Assembly: GCA_002869185.1 (NCBI GenBank)
Contig: PKTN01000001.1
Coordinates: forward strand, 62,001-126,000
Direction: 5' to 3'
Length of the DNA stretch: 64,000 nucleotides
From: Denitrovibrio sp.
GTDB lineage: Bacteria; Chrysiogenota; Deferribacteres; Deferribacterales; Geovibrionaceae
Positions 3,917 to 31,610 of this stretch are shown here, piece by piece. Position numbers and translations under genes: made by a program. The notes under the pieces are model-generated. The model searched no databases. It was not told where the DNA came from and was given only the letters and a program-made list of their open reading frames with translations. Each line of letters begins with the position of its first letter. The stretch's first letter is position 1.

Positions 3917-5299
3917 ATGGAACGTATACTTATCGTCGATGATGAAGCATTTATTCGTGAAAATCTTGAAAGAGTTTTACAATCTGACGGATATCGAACT
4001 ATATCAGCCGAAAATGGAAACGAAGCACTCACAGCTATTAGCGAACAAGAGGTTGACCTTGTACTCCTTGATCTTAACCTTGGTGCCGAGAGTGGGCTTG
4101 AAGTTCTTAGTAGCCTAAGGGAGATTGAACCTAATCTTTTAGTAATTATAATAACAGGTTATGGTACTGTTGAAAGTGCTGTCGAAGCACTTAAACTTGG
4201 AGCATACGACTATATAAAGAAGCCATTTAAAGCTGATGCGATACACCTTATTGTACGTCTTGCTCTTGAAACTCAATCACTTAAAAGGGAGATGAGGCAG
4301 CTTAGGCGTGATGGTGCGACGCATCATTTTACTGAAGAGATGATAGGCTCAAGCCCGCAGATATTACAGGTTTTTGACCAGATAAGAGAGGTTTCCAAAC
4401 ATGGGACATCCACTGTGCTAATAACTGGTGAGAGTGGCACTGGTAAAGAACTTGCGGCAAGGGCTATACATAAATACTCTGAACGTTCTAATCAGCCATT
4501 TATAGAGATAAACTGTGGTTCACTTCCGTTAAACCTTTTGGAATCAGAGCTTTTTGGATATGAGAAGGGTGCATTCACCGATGCTAAGATCCGAAAAAAG
4601 GGGCTTATCGAAGAGGCTGACGGTGGGACTCTGTTTCTGGATGAGATAGGCGAGATGGATATTTCTCTTCAGGTTAAACTACTTAGAGTGTTAGAAGAGC
4701 GTAATATTAGACGGATTGGTGGCTCTAGAAATATAGAGATAGACACAAGGGTCATTGCTGCGACTAATAGAGATTTAAAATTAGCTGTTGAAGATAAAGA
4801 ATTTAGGGAAGATTTATATTATAGATTAAACGTTGTTCCAATATTCTTGCCCCCTCTTAGAGAGAGAAAAGAGGATATTACGCAACTTTTGAATTTTTTT
4901 ATTAAAAGGTTTAGTAAACAGTTTAATAAACAGGTGAAAGATGTATCTAGACAGGCTTTGGATATGATTCTTAATTATAGGTGGCCTGGTAATGCTAGGG
5001 AGTTGAGGAATGTTGTTGAGAGGATATGTATTATGAGCAGTAGTGTTCATATTACCCCTGACACACTTCCGAAAGAGATAACTGGTGAACCTGTAAATAC
5101 CTCTGTTAAAGAGTGTTTCAGCCTGAATGAAACGGGACTTAATCTTGAAGAAGAGATCGCGTCTATAGAGAAAGAATACATAAGAAAAGCTCTTCAGATG
5201 ACAGGGGCTAATGTTGCTAAAACTTCAAGACTTTTGCAGATTCCTAGGGGGACTCTGAGGTATAAGATAGAGAAATATGAGCTAACTGATACTGACTAA
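3917..5299 (+). CDS. NtrC/DctD-family sigma-54-dependent response regulator
   Basis: Receiver domain ([13 protein letters not shown]), AAA+ with GESGTGKE and GAFTDA motifs, C-terminal Fis-type HTH ([21 protein letters not shown]). Confidence 0.95.
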
Positions 5300-5307
5300 T
5301 TGTAAAT

Positions 5308-5325
5308 CTGGTTGAAATTAGCCAC
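5308..5325. promoter_or_regulatory. UAS-like element CTGGTTGAAATTAGCCAC
   Basis: Matches the motif GTGGCTGAAATTCGCCAC. Confidence 0.55.
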
Positions 5326-5335
5326 AGTAGATAAT

Positions 5336-5353
5336 GTGGCTGAAATCCGCCTG
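5336..5353. promoter_or_regulatory. UAS-like element GTGGCTGAAATCCGCCTG
   Basis: Matches the motif GTGGCTGAAATTCGCCAC. Confidence 0.6.
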
Positions 5354-5417
5354 ATATGAATATGTTATTAAGTATAAACGTGTTAGCTTTATTTGTTGGT
5401 GTTTTTTTTTGTATTTG

Positions 5418-5435
5418 GTGGCTGAAATTCGCCAT
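5418..5435. promoter_or_regulatory. UAS-like element GTGGCTGAAATTCGCCAT
   Basis: Best match to the repeated motif; about 130 bp upstream of a sigma-54 promoter. Confidence 0.62.
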
Positions 5436-5567
5436 GTTTTTTACTTTTAATCTATTTCAAATTTATAACAACTTTATACATCGGCAACTAGATGAAGTCA
5501 TATGTGACCTTTACCCTCAATAACTTATATAAATACCCTAAGTTACTCTTTTTAAAATAATATCTAC

Positions 5568-5582
5568 TGGCACGCCTATTGC
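5568..5582 (+). promoter_or_regulatory. Sigma-54 -24/-12 promoter TGGCACGCCTATTGC
   Basis: Matches TGGCAC-N5-TTGC; upstream of the DASS gene starting at 5631. Confidence 0.85.
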
Positions 5583-5630
5583 TTTTATCAGCGAGTCAAT
5601 TCAATAGTTTTATTTTTTAAGGAGAATTCT

Positions 5631-7370
5631 ATGGTCGCTAATATTTGGAATCGTTTGTGGGTTATGCACGACGAAACAAAAGCTCTAACACTTTTCAGCC
5701 CTAAGGCTATGCTCAAAAAATTCACTGGTAACTCATATTCAACTGATGTTAACCCTGAGCACGACGTTGATCTCGCTGATGAAATGGACGAAGCACCAGC
5801 AGAGCACAACAGACGTGTGACACCTAGTCCTGACGGTCTTGAAGAGGGTGAACCTCGTGAATATACTACAAGACAAAAGATAGGGCTTATACTCGGACCT
5901 GTACTGTTTATACTTATGCTTATAGTTCCAACCCCAGGTGGAATGGAACCAGTGGCTCAGAAGATGGCAGCAGTAGCATTCCTTATGGCTACATGGTGGA
6001 TGTGTGAATCTATCCCAATCCCTGCTACAAGTCTTTTGCCACTTGCTCTTTTCCCTCTGCTTGGGATTATGCATACAAAAAAGGCTGCTGCACCTTATGC
6101 TAGTCATCTAATCTTCCTTTTTATGGGTGGATTTATTATCGCTCTTTCAATGCAGCGTTGGAACCTTCATAAGCGTATTGCTATGAATATCGTTAAGGTA
6201 GTAGGTTTCTCACCTAGCCGTCTTATCTTCGGATTTATGGCTGCGACAGCTGTTTTGTCTGCTTTCGTTTCTAACACAGCTACAACAGTTATGATGATGC
6301 CTATTGGTCTTGCTATTGTTCATCACGTAGTAGAGGAAGGGACTAAAGAGGGGCTTGATAAGGATATTGATTTCTCACCTGAAAAGTTCGCATTTGGGCT
6401 TAACCTTATGCTTGGTATAGCTTACGCTGCCTCAATCGGTGGCATAGCAACGCTCATCGGAACACCTCCTAACACGGTCCTTGCTGGTTACCTTAACAAA
6501 ACATACGGTTATGAGATCACTTTTGCATCATGGCTTATGGTTGGTGTACCACTCGTGCTTGTATTCCTCCCTCTTTGCTGGTTATGGCTTACAAGAGTAG
6601 CTAACCCTATGAAACTTAAGAAAGTTCCTTGTGGTAAAGAGCTTATTGGTGCAGAGCTTAAAAAGATGGGAAGTATGGTTCCAGGAGAGAAGTGGACACT
6701 TGTTGTTTTCACTCTTACAGCTCTTGGTTGGATATTCCGTAAGAAGCTCGGATTTATGTTCGCAGACCCAAAACTTATAACGGATGCAACTATAGCTATG
6801 ACAGGAGCACTTCTTCTTTTCATGATCCCAATCAATATGAAAAAGAATCAATTCGTAATGGATTGGCACTGGGCTTCTAAACTACCTTGGGGAGTTCTTA
6901 TACTCTTTGGTGGTGGTCTTAGTATGGCGGCTGGTTTCAAGACATCTAAGCTTGCTGAATGGATCGGTTCTCAGGTTTCACTTCTGGAGCACGCACCAAT
7001 AATCGTATTGATTTTTGCAGTTGCAACACTCATAATCTTCCTCACAGAGCTTACGTCAAACACAGCTACATCTGCTATGGTTATGCCTATCCTGTCAGCT
7101 GTCGCTATAGGGCTTGGTCAAAATCCACTTCTGCTTGTTGTACCTGCTGCAATAGCTGCTTCATGTGCATTCATGCTCCCTGTTGCTACACCGCCTAACG
7201 CCATTGTATTTGGCTCAGGCTATGTTACGATACCGCAGATGGTTAAGAGTGGAATTGGTCTCAATATAATTGGTATCATTCTTACAGTTGCTATTACTTA
7301 TCTCATAGTATTCCCAGTTTTTGGAATAGAGATTAATGTCCTTCCTGTATGGGCAACAATGCTTAAATAA
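5631..7370 (+). CDS. DASS/SLC13-family anion (dicarboxylate-type) symporter
   Basis: Multi-TM protein with SNTATTVMMMPI and TSNTATSAMVMPI motifs typical of DASS; GGAG RBS upstream. Confidence 0.9.
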   Translation: MVANIWNRLWVMHDETKALTLFSPKAMLKKFTGNSYSTDVNPEHDVDLADEMDEAPAEHNRRVTPSPDGLEEGEPREYTTRQKIGLILGPVLFILMLIVPTPGGMEPVAQKMAAVAFLMATWWMCESIPIPATSLLPLALFPLLGIMHTKKAAAPYASHLIFLFMGGFIIALSMQRWNLHKRIAMNIVKVVGFSPSRLIFGFMAATAVLSAFVSNTATTVMMMPIGLAIVHHVVEEGTKEGLDKDIDFSPEKFAFGLNLMLGIAYAASIGGIATLIGTPPNTVLAGYLNKTYGYEITFASWLMVGVPLVLVFLPLCWLWLTRVANPMKLKKVPCGKELIGAELKKMGSMVPGEKWTLVVFTLTALGWIFRKKLGFMFADPKLITDATIAMTGALLLFMIPINMKKNQFVMDWHWASKLPWGVLILFGGGLSMAAGFKTSKLAEWIGSQVSLLEHAPIIVLIFAVATLIIFLTELTSNTATSAMVMPILSAVAIGLGQNPLLLVVPAAIAASCAFMLPVATPPNAIVFGSGYVTIPQMVKSGIGLNIIGIILTVAITYLIVFPVFGIEINVLPVWATMLK

Positions 7371-28086: not shown

Positions 28087-28803
28087 ATGTATTTTAGACT
28101 TCTGTTTACAATCGTCATATCTGTTGCTGTCCATTATGTTGCACTTGGTACTGTGCCTGGGTTTGATATCCAGCTGAAACCACGCAAGAGGACAGTGGAT
28201 ATTGAGCTTGTAGCGCCTTCTGTAAGGGAGCTTCCTCCTGCTCCTGTGACTAAGGCTGGCTCAAGTGCTGTTAACAGAAACTCTGAGATGAATGAAGCGA
28301 CAGCTCCTGCTTTTACTATTCCCGATATTGATATCCCTGACGTAAAAGGGACAGATCAGCTCGACGTTAAGATACCTGAGCTGAACGTGACAAAGCTTGA
28401 AAACACTAGCAGGTTAAAGCCAGATAAGGAACTTCTGAAAGAACTGAAATCATCTTCTGACGAATTCCAGAAGGCTAATAAACCGGGCGAAGGTATAGAG
28501 TCTGACGTGACTGGTAAGAATTCTAACAATAAAGATTTCTTTGTCATTAAAAACTTGAACCGCAACAGAAAGCTAACTAACAGTCCAGAAAAACCAGTAT
28601 TCTCACTCACCACTGATACTATTGTTCGTGTGGGTTTTAAGGTGGATAGGGAAGGGAATACATTCTCCATAACTCTGTTGAATAATACAGATTCGAAAAT
28701 TGAACGCCTAGCCATTGACTTTGTAAAGAAATTAAAGTTTAATGCCGTGCTTGCTGAGGAATCTGAATCAGCAGAAATAATATTAAATTTTAGAGTGAGA
28801 TAG
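28087..28803 (+). CDS. TonB/TolA-like energy transducer
   Basis: N-terminal TM, Pro-rich linker, C-terminal TonB-like domain; coupled to TolQ/R-like genes. Confidence 0.72.
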   Translation: MYFRLLFTIVISVAVHYVALGTVPGFDIQLKPRKRTVDIELVAPSVRELPPAPVTKAGSSAVNRNSEMNEATAPAFTIPDIDIPDVKGTDQLDVKIPELNVTKLENTSRLKPDKELLKELKSSSDEFQKANKPGEGIESDVTGKNSNNKDFFVIKNLNRNRKLTNSPEKPVFSLTTDTIVRVGFKVDREGNTFSITLLNNTDSKIERLAIDFVKKLKFNAVLAEESESAEIILNFRVR

Positions 28804-29933
28804 TGGAAAATAGTCTTAAAAATTATGTAGAAAACTTAGTTCGTGAAAAGGGACAGATAACCTTCGCGGAATTTATGGATATAGCCCTTTATAAAGAGGG
28901 TATGGGATATTATCAGAAACAGAACCCATTCGGTCAGCAGGGTAGTTTTTATACCTCTGTTAATGCATCTGAGTCGTTCGGTCGCACACTCGCCAGATCG
29001 TTCGTATATATGGTTGATCTTCTTGGGCTTGAAAGCCAATTTTGTGAGATGGGCGCTGGTAGCGGTATGCTCGCAAACGATGTACTGAACTATATCAAAG
29101 AGAACAATAAAGATTTCTACACAAACCTGAACTACCTCATCATAGAAAAGAGTGAATACCTGATCAACATGCAAAAGGAGCTCATAGAGAAGGAGCACCC
29201 AGGCAAGGCGAAATGGATCACTTTTGAAGAGCTTAATAATTTCAACGGCGTATTCTACTCTAACGAGCTGGTCGATGCTTTCCCTGTTCACAGGGTTATC
29301 CGCATGAATGACGAGCTGAAAGAGCTTTATGTAAAAGAGATAGAGGGTGCACTCAGGTTTAATCCTGATGAGCTTTCTACTCCTGAACTGAAAGCGTTTT
29401 TAGACAAGATTAGCCTGAACGTTACAGAGACTCAGATAGTCGACATCAACCTCGACCTAAAACGCTGGATAGAGGCTATGGCAGACAAGATAAACAAGGG
29501 CGTGATGGTCACTATCGACTACGGCTTCGAAGCTCCTATGCTATACCAGTCGTACCGTAGAGACGGAACTGTCACCTGCTACTATCAACACAGACAAAAC
29601 AACGACTTCTTTGAAAATATAGGCGAGCAGGATCTTACTGCTTTTGTTGATTTCACATCATTGTCATTATACGGTTCTGAAAAAGGGTTACAGCCTATGG
29701 CTTTCATGCCACAGTGGCTATACCTTGTCCAGTCGGGCATCCTTGACGAGATAGATGCTGCACCAACAGACCTTGCAAAAGCTTCTATTAAATCGCTAAT
29801 TATGCCAGAGGGTGGTTTTGGAACTAACTTTCACGCATTCATTCAGGGTAAGGGTGTAGATGTCCCATCAGACTTCCTATATACCAAATCCGCAAAAGAA
29901 GCGCTCGAGTCCATGGCACAAAAACTTTCTTAA
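28803..29933 (+). CDS. SAM-dependent methyltransferase, MidA/NDUFAF7 family
   Basis: ITFAEFMDIALYKEGMGYY, EMGAGSGMLANDVL, VMVTIDYGFEAPMLYQ. Confidence 0.88.
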   Translation: MENSLKNYVENLVREKGQITFAEFMDIALYKEGMGYYQKQNPFGQQGSFYTSVNASESFGRTLARSFVYMVDLLGLESQFCEMGAGSGMLANDVLNYIKENNKDFYTNLNYLIIEKSEYLINMQKELIEKEHPGKAKWITFEELNNFNGVFYSNELVDAFPVHRVIRMNDELKELYVKEIEGALRFNPDELSTPELKAFLDKISLNVTETQIVDINLDLKRWIEAMADKINKGVMVTIDYGFEAPMLYQSYRRDGTVTCYYQHRQNNDFFENIGEQDLTAFVDFTSLSLYGSEKGLQPMAFMPQWLYLVQSGILDEIDAAPTDLAKASIKSLIMPEGGFGTNFHAFIQGKGVDVPSDFLYTKSAKEALESMAQKLS

Positions 29934-30038: not shown

Positions 30039-30053
30039 TGGCACTGTTTATGC
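30039..30053 (+). promoter_or_regulatory. Sigma-54-like promoter TGGCACTGTTTATGC
   Basis: TGGCAC-N5-ATGC upstream of small-repeat-protein gene 30088. Confidence 0.65.
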
Positions 30054-30087
30054 TTTATACCTCTTATGCGTGCATTAGGAGGAAAAA

Positions 30088-30447
30088 ATGGACATTAACA
30101 GTCAATATCTATCACTCATGAACCAGCAGAACAATGGAACATCATCCACAAAATCCCTAGCAGATTACTTAAACGATAGTAGATCAAAGTCAACTTCATC
30201 TGGGGCGTCATACTTTTCTGATTCAGTTTCTTTATCGCCAGAGGCTTATGCGGCTATCAAGGAATATAATCCTGAAATGTTGATATCTCTTGGCTATGAA
30301 AGGGAAGATTCTGACTCTATGACGGAAAATTCTTCTAGTTCTTTACTGGACAACATCCAGTTTTCTGATGAAACATACGCAGCCCTTAAGAAATCAAATC
30401 CTGAATTACTACAGTCACTTGGCTATAAAATTGACGAGAATGAATAA
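30088..30447 (+). CDS. Small hypothetical protein with two copies of a 'SxEAYAALKxxNPExLxSLGY' motif
   Basis: SPEAYAAIKEYNPEMLISLGYE and SDETYAALKKSNPELLQSLGYK; AGGAGG RBS. Confidence 0.75.
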   Translation: MDINSQYLSLMNQQNNGTSSTKSLADYLNDSRSKSTSSGASYFSDSVSLSPEAYAAIKEYNPEMLISLGYEREDSDSMTENSSSSLLDNIQFSDETYAALKKSNPELLQSLGYKIDENE

Positions 30448-30473
30448 CGGTTGAAAATATTTCCACCTTATTC

Positions 30474-30488
30474 TGGCACGCTAAATGC
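30474..30488 (+). promoter_or_regulatory. Sigma-54-like promoter TGGCACGCTAAATGC
   Basis: TGGCAC-N5-ATGC upstream of paralog gene 30525. Confidence 0.7.
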
Positions 30489-30524
30489 TTTGTAGATAAT
30501 GAATCCTGAACATGGGGGCAAAAA

Positions 30525-30998
30525 ATGATAGTAAGTGGAAGCTTTTACCAATCAGTAGCAAATGAAAATTATAAATCGACAGAGAGCAACTCAGTTGAGT
30601 CTCTTGCAACACATATGAATAAAACTGCACCTGTCGCAACAACTGTGACAGATCAGGTTGAACTCTCAGCAGAAGCTATGGCAGCACTCAGAGAGTACGC
30701 ACCAGAAGCATTGTCTGCTCTCGGAGTAGATGACGATAACCCAATACTAGATGAAGTTAAAGAGATTGCTAAAGAGAAATATTTTCACTTTGGTTCTGAG
30801 TATCTGAGATTACCTGAAATGAAAGATCAGGATGAAATCATCAGCGCACTCGATGTGGCAAGCAGATACATGGACGTTTTGAACTCTATAGAGCCTGACG
30901 ATTTATTCGCAGAGTTAGAGAGTGCAAATATGCAAAGCTCTGGCGATTTCATAGAAAGAGCTAACGAATACGGTGCTCAGGTGCTTTTAAACGGGTAA
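30525..30998 (+). CDS. Small hypothetical protein, paralog of 30088..30447
   Basis: QVELSAEAMAALREYAPEALSALGVD shares the same motif. Confidence 0.75.
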   Translation: MIVSGSFYQSVANENYKSTESNSVESLATHMNKTAPVATTVTDQVELSAEAMAALREYAPEALSALGVDDDNPILDEVKEIAKEKYFHFGSEYLRLPEMKDQDEIISALDVASRYMDVLNSIEPDDLFAELESANMQSSGDFIERANEYGAQVLLNG

Positions 30999-31610
30999 TT
31001 ACCAGTTGACATTTATATATTCTAATTCCTTGCTAAAAACGAACTTGGCAGAGTGAGCTGTCAGTTCGTTTAGCATGGATATGTTAAACCTATCAAACTT
31101 CGACGCTAGGAAATGATTATTCATAGCAAAACCAGCAAATTTCAAATTGTTAGACTCTAGGAATGACTTATTCAGTAGTGAATGGTTAATGCATCCTAGT
31201 CTATTCGGTACAACCACTAAGCATTCCAGATCACACGCCTTTACAAGATCGTAGTTCATATAGTCACTATCTAGGGGAACCATAATCCCGCCTGCACCTT
31301 CGACAATAAGCCAATCATAGCCAGTTATGGAGTTTATAGTTTCGACTGTTTCGTCAAAAGGGAATTCATCAAATACTATATATGGTGCAACAGGTGCCTC
31401 TGCCGTATGCAAAACTTTACAATCATCTTCACTCAATACAGACATCTCTCTTACAGTTTTGGAATCATCATCCGCAGGGAATCCCGTCTGTACTGGCTTT
31501 ATGTAGCAAACTTTACCACCCTGTTCTTTGAGGTGCTTGCAGAGTAAGCCGCTGAAATATGTTTTACCTATGTCGGTGTCTGTCCCTGTGATATATATCT
31601 TTCGCATCAA
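30999..31610 (-). CDS. bioD: Dethiobiotin synthase
   Basis: IYITGTDTDIGKTYFSGLLCKHL; KPVQTG; adjacent bioA. Confidence 0.94.
   Translation of the reverse strand: MMRKIYITGTDTDIGKTYFSGLLCKHLKEQGGKVCYIKPVQTGFPADDDSKTVREMSVLSEDDCKVLHTAEAPVAPYIVFDEFPFDETVETINSITGYDWLIVEGAGGIMVPLDSDYMNYDLVKACDLECLVVVPNRLGCINHSLLNKSFLESNNLKFAGFAMNNHFLASKFDRFNISMLNELTAHSAKFVFSKELEYINVNW

Follow-up and report, generated by a model that had tools for sequence, protein, structure and literature searches.

What might two adjacent small genes encode if their products share a repeated motif and belong to no recognised family, and if each gene follows a promoter-like sequence of the sigma-54 type? The genes, here called p1 and p2, lie in a window of 64,000 nucleotides (G000:C5:62001-126000) from the genome of a Denitrovibrio-like bacterium, 2.78 Mb in 13 contigs. 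An earlier note on this DNA had described them as a duplicated, co-regulated family and had suggested a possibly flagellar or surface-related function, largely because sigma-54 often controls flagella.

Two paralogous genes and their relatives

Both open reading frames were found intact where the earlier note had placed them (Table 1), with good ribosome-binding sites 5–6 bases upstream of the ATG; at the site of p1 the sequence AGGAGGAAAAAATG is invariant in 3 genomes. By sequence recognition, we take the upstream neighbour to be a SAM-dependent methyltransferase gene of the MidA type (midA), and the convergent downstream neighbour to be a bioD-like dethiobiotin synthetase gene (bioD). In the window, p2 and bioD abut directly (30998/30999). 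The genes p1 and p2 are true paralogues, as had been proposed. Their products align over residues 1–71 with a profile-profile probability of 97.5% (E 8e-12), and because the alignment spans the first 71 residues it reflects a duplication and more than a common motif.

Table 1. Position of p1, p2, their sequence elements and their neighbours in the window.
Feature	Coordinates	Strand	Description	Basis
Upstream neighbour	28803..29933	+		ORF; same neighbour in genera g1, g4
Sigma-54 element of p1, TGGCACTGTTTATGC	30039..30053	+	-24/-12 element	Exact spacing; equivalents in both congeners
Ribosome-binding site of p1	30077..30082	+	AGGAGG	Direct reading
p1	30088..30447	+	119 aa, two motif copies	Intact ORF; orthologues with 49–52% identity in two congeners
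p1 repeat 1, FSDSVSLSPEAYAAIKEYNPEMLISLGYE	30214..30300	+		Profile search
p1 repeat 2, LLDNIQFSDETYAALKKSNPELLQSLGYK	30343..30429	+		Profile search
Sigma-54 element of p2, TGGCACGCTAAATGC	30474..30488	+	-24/-12 element	Exact spacing; conserved in homologues
Ribosome-binding site of p2	30514..30518	+	GGGGG	Direct reading; GGGG invariant in 8 genomes
p2	30525..30998	+	157 aa, one motif copy, C-terminal half helical	Intact ORF
p2 motif copy, VTDQVELSAEAMAALREYAPEALSALGVD	30645..30731	+		Profile search
Downstream convergent neighbour	30999..31610	-		ORF; same neighbour in g1, g3, g4

The order midA, p1, p2 and convergent bioD is kept in two congeners, while a single p2-type gene occupies the same position in five g4 genomes. 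A profile search of 51 genomes of the phylum also revealed more distant p2-type genes in three g3 genomes, where they are again convergent with bioD; tail-to-tail overlaps of 34 bases between the two genes were seen in g3 (L168:1800-1833, L169:1806-1839). In total, 10 further genomes carry a p2-type gene; they belong to three genera of the host's family, and bioD is the convergent neighbour in each. The same search of 51 genomes gave no convincing p2-type gene outside the host's family, and found none in genome G003 (g2), though FlgM is present there. One weak match, in genome G046 (E 0.004), crosses two stop codons.

Sequence searches of Pfam, NCBIfam, PHROGs and the PDB yielded no significant match for p1 or p2, in keeping with the earlier failure to recognise a family. 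Weak matches to Ddi2_HDD, ANT_9, EF-1 alpha and HNH nuclease chains were at chance level, and Rfam had no family match in the region. Both proteins lack cysteine, and Ser, Thr, Asn and Gln together make up 23/44 (p1) and 19/44 (p2) of the first 44 residues. The AlphaFold models (pLDDT 47 and 62) were too poor for fold searches. In the model of p2 the N-terminal half has no confident structure; the model of p1 presents, with modest confidence, a Ser-capped helix at the motif and another short helix after it.

Sigma-54 elements before p1 and p2

The promoter-like sequences reported before both genes have the form TGGCAC-N6-TGC, with the correct sigma-54 geometry and exact GG-to-GC spacing. Since the -12 GC ends 35 bases (p1) and 37 bases (p2) before the ATG, the leader would measure roughly 25 bases. 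The pattern TGGCAYN6TGCWW occurs three times in the window against 0.38 (sd 0.53) expected, a count that 0 of 100 shuffles reached, and two of the three matches are the elements of p1 and p2. Sigma-70 promoters were at chance level (3 found vs 3.5 expected). Genome-wide, there are 17 sigma-54 sites of a stricter form, against 0 for a reversed-pattern control.

The elements of p1 and p2 are conserved. Each of the 14 genes that we read, spread over three genera, is preceded by a sigma-54 element. These elements include TGGCATCTAATATGC and TGGCACTGTTCCTGC before p1 in the congeners and TGGCATGCGGACTGCT (equivalent TGGCATGCGGACTGC) as the p2-type element of the three g3 genomes; TGGCA and ATGCT of the p2 element are invariant in 8 genomes. 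Identity between the p2 protein of the window and the g3 proteins drops to 18–20%, while four residues of the motif are still invariant. That promoter and motif both outlast the rest of the sequence is our strongest result. Conservation of the elements across three genera lends strong support to sigma-54-dependent transcription of p1 and p2, and hence to the co-regulation that had been predicted. The presence of an rpoN gene is implied by the 13 strong matches to the sigma-54 activator domain PF00158 in this genome, together with the target sites.

By sequence recognition, the genes behind the sigma-54 sites of the genome (strict and related pattern) presumably include glnB-glnA, a second PII gene, amtB-type transporters and nifB, all of them classic sigma-54 targets. 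An alanine dehydrogenase gene, an MCP and others also follow such sites. Because the sites precede glnB-glnA, nifB and other genes as well, sigma-54 alone is a weak pointer to the flagellum.

Some further sites deserve mention in their own right. Window 4340-4843 matches PF00158 as part of a two-component sigma-54 activator, with a sigma-54 site downstream at 5568-5585; a large anion-transporter-like gene starting near 5631 is the probable target of this activator (window 4340-5650). A strict site lies close before an lpxC-like gene of lipid A synthesis (L042, G000:C3:87557), which would be an unusual target if real. In each of two paralogous operons of a response regulator and a membrane protein (L041, G000:C2:71569; L052, G000:C5:799941), a sigma-54-like site overlaps the point where the first gene begins.

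A motif shared with FlgM

A profile search located two motif copies in p1 and one in p2, as described before. The motif is present as the earlier note had stated it, but the repeat unit is longer, at about 29 residues (xxDxVxLSxEAYAALKExNPExLxALGY), and only its first 9–13 residues (DxVxLSxxAxxxL) are kept family-wide. Run with the 29-residue unit, the profile search returned the three window copies at E 2e-18 to 2e-15, these copies being rows of the profile themselves; in relatives, the matches better than E 0.06 were orthologous copies only, which are also profile rows. Conservation within the family is highest at D-x-[VI]-x-[LI]-S-x-x-A-x-x-x-L. In p2, residues D43, S48, A51 and L55 of the motif are invariant in 11 genomes, as are A82 and N135.

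We scanned the whole genome for codons of the shorter pattern D-x-[VI]-x-[LF]-S-x-x-A; frames were then checked, and the remainder was read by eye. The 49 DNA matches came down to six real genes. Besides p1 (residue 45) and p2 (residue 43), the motif is found in FlgM (residue 38) and in a SprA-related protein (residue 39), and these four are the only proteins of the host genome with the motif at residues 38–45. The other two genes encode a PAS-domain sensor protein (residue 365) and an antiporter-looking membrane protein (residue 89). Counting p1 and p2 once, and assuming 2600 genes and 90% coding sequence, the probability that three of five motif proteins carry it at residues 38–45 is near 1e-4, for a range picked after seeing the data; with a wider range of 30–60 it is 0.008.

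The host FlgM is certain (Pfam 8e-18), and the true flgM gene is located on contig C11, followed by genes that we take to resemble flgN, flgK, flgL, fliW and csrA. In 11 genomes of the family (a twelfth, L105, did not pass the ORF filter), a TGGCA[CT]-N6-TGC site precedes the FlgM start by 134–156 bases, which places it within the 3' end of the preceding gene or just beyond it. Throughout the phylum the motif belongs to FlgM: it is strict or nearly so in 23 of the 26 FlgM proteins read, with near variants in the remaining three.

Nevertheless, p1 and p2 are not homologues of FlgM by these searches: they have no Pfam FlgM match, and profile comparison with hhalign covers only 15–19 columns, at the motif (P 0.02–0.03 each). 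The sigma-28-binding half of FlgM was absent from both in the Pfam and hhalign comparisons, and neither gene adjoins flgN or flgK. The 29-residue profile ranks FlgM only at E 1.6, and the link to FlgM comes from the shorter pattern scan, the position of the motif and the shared promoter type, rather than from this E-value. We conclude that p1 and p2 are a new lineage-restricted family and not members of FlgM.

The SprA-related gene is found near a short flagellin-like gene in genomes G000, G001 and G002, with a similar fragment nearby in G003. No sigma-54 site was found at the SprA-related gene of the host genome. As the motif is missing from SprA-related proteins of other families than the host's, it does not serve SprA-related proteins in general as an export signal, and we dropped it as a universal SprA-related signal. 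As a separate observation, a short flagellin-like gene near a SprA-related or truncated SprA-like gene was seen at L159 (G000:C5:144000-156000), L098, L100 and L180; in the host genome both genes are positioned away from the flgM-flgK-flgL cluster. Another small protein (L099:2267-2737, genome G002) has one EF-hand-like stretch and a DSVSLS element, and its start, MSISSIGMSYSQLQ, resembles that of p2. Possibly, it is another member of the p1/p2 N-terminal class.

Proposed flagellar export and its alternatives

Our preferred explanation, with a probability of about one half, is that p1 and p2 are lineage-specific small proteins, co-regulated with the flagellum, that have a FlgM-like N-terminus and for which the flagellar type III system is the probable route of export. 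Taken apart, p1 and p2 are probably made along with the flagellum and perhaps exported through it; their place in the flagellar regulon, their export and any extracellular role are what we infer from the sequences. Sigma-54 RNA polymerase would start each gene from its own -24/-12 element, and sigma-54 with a flagellar activator would switch on both together with the flgM operon. Our guess for this activator, from the general resemblance of the adjoining kinase, is the NtrC-type regulator after a histidine kinase at G000:C13:53378. Each protein would start with some 40 unstructured residues rich in Ser, Thr, Asn and Gln, followed by the helix-capping DxVxLSxEAxxxL, as in FlgM. This N-terminal module would most likely take p1 and p2 to the flagellar type III export apparatus, and the proteins might then be released or remain attached to the flagellum as it grows, in the manner of the non-structural proteins whose secretion by Campylobacter depends on the flagellum.

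Several results argue for flagellar export: the sigma-54 element before every p1- and p2-type gene read, the motif as the most constant part of the family, its confinement near the N-terminus to p1, p2, FlgM and the SprA-related protein, the conserved sigma-54 site on the flgM operon, and the SprA-related gene near a short flagellin-like gene. The cysteine-free composition, the polar start, the unstructured N-terminal half of p2 and the lack of a Pfam domain point the same way. In addition, FlgM and the SprA-related protein CJM1_0395 of C. jejuni appear in the medium in a flagellum-dependent manner (PMC5223770), and export of FlgM is established in Salmonella (PMC8527033). The earlier suggestion of a flagellar function is plausible and now has independent support in the motif common to FlgM and the SprA-related protein and in the sigma-54 promoter on the flgM operon; its original ground, the habit of sigma-54, carries little weight by itself.

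Against flagellar export stand the brevity of the FlgM similarity, the location of p1 and p2 between midA and bioD outside the flagellar cluster, the use of sigma-54 for nitrogen and other genes, the SprA-related proteins without the motif outside the host's family, and genome G003 with FlgM and without p2. An alternative explanation, which we consider possible but rather unlikely, might be that p1 and p2 serve a sigma-54-dependent programme other than the flagellar one, such as nitrogen, respiration or chemotaxis signalling. The FlgM likeness would then reflect a common design in which a disordered stretch precedes a Ser-capped amphipathic helix. Most recognisable sigma-54 sites in the genome precede non-flagellar genes, p1 and p2 adjoin biotin genes, and the match to FlgM is short. 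Such a common design sits uneasily, however, with a motif that is the invariant core of the family and that, in this genome, only FlgM, the SprA-related protein, p1 and p2 carry at residues 38–45.

It is less probable that p1 and p2 remain intracellular and act as regulators or decoys resembling FlgM. Their motif might bind a partner of FlgM, either FliA or an export chaperone; p1 with its two copies, together with p2, would thereby tune the release of FlgM and the onset of late flagellar genes. Motif and sigma-54 control are common to FlgM and p1/p2, two copies would suit a multivalent ligand, and the chaperone FliS of Salmonella binds FlgM, restraining its export (PMC8527033). Yet p1 and p2 lack the sigma-28-binding half of FlgM, and the family is missing from G003, which has FlgM. 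More speculative still, and doubtful, is a broader idea in which the flagellar export or regulatory machinery of this lineage recognises DxVxLSxxA near residue 40 as a portable element, found in FlgM, SprA-related proteins and p1/p2; with its two copies, p1 would then be a multivalent competitor of FlgM and adjust when late flagellar genes are expressed. That the two open reading frames are chance or decaying ones, as the absence of a database family might suggest, is already refuted by the conservation of frame, start, ribosome-binding site, motif and promoter over three genera.

If flagellar export is the correct explanation, the flagellar regulon would gain an undescribed family of small proteins, in a phylum whose flagella seem to have received little study, judging by the papers we found. 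The element DxVxLSxxA near residue 40 could then mark flagellar export substrates or FlgM partners, offering a simple and testable sign in genomes where homology is uninformative.

Among known systems, FlgM (PF04316) resembles p1 and p2 in its small size, its disordered N-terminus with DxVxLSxxA near residue 40, and an operon with a conserved sigma-54 promoter in this lineage. It differs in its sigma-28-binding C-terminal half, whereas p1 and p2 are encoded outside the flagellar operon and have no Pfam FlgM match. The SprA-related proteins (PF12118) of the host's family likewise carry the motif element, at residues 39–44, but differ in their C-terminal domain, which includes an HExxH-like motif and is missing from p1 and p2. 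The flagellar co-expressed determinants (Feds) of Campylobacter are non-structural, under flagellar sigma-factor control, and exit via the flagellar export system (PMC5223770). Their likeness to p1 and p2 would lie in this proposed mode only, non-structural and leaving through the flagellar export system; Feds depend on sigma-28, whereas p1 and p2 have a sigma-54 element.
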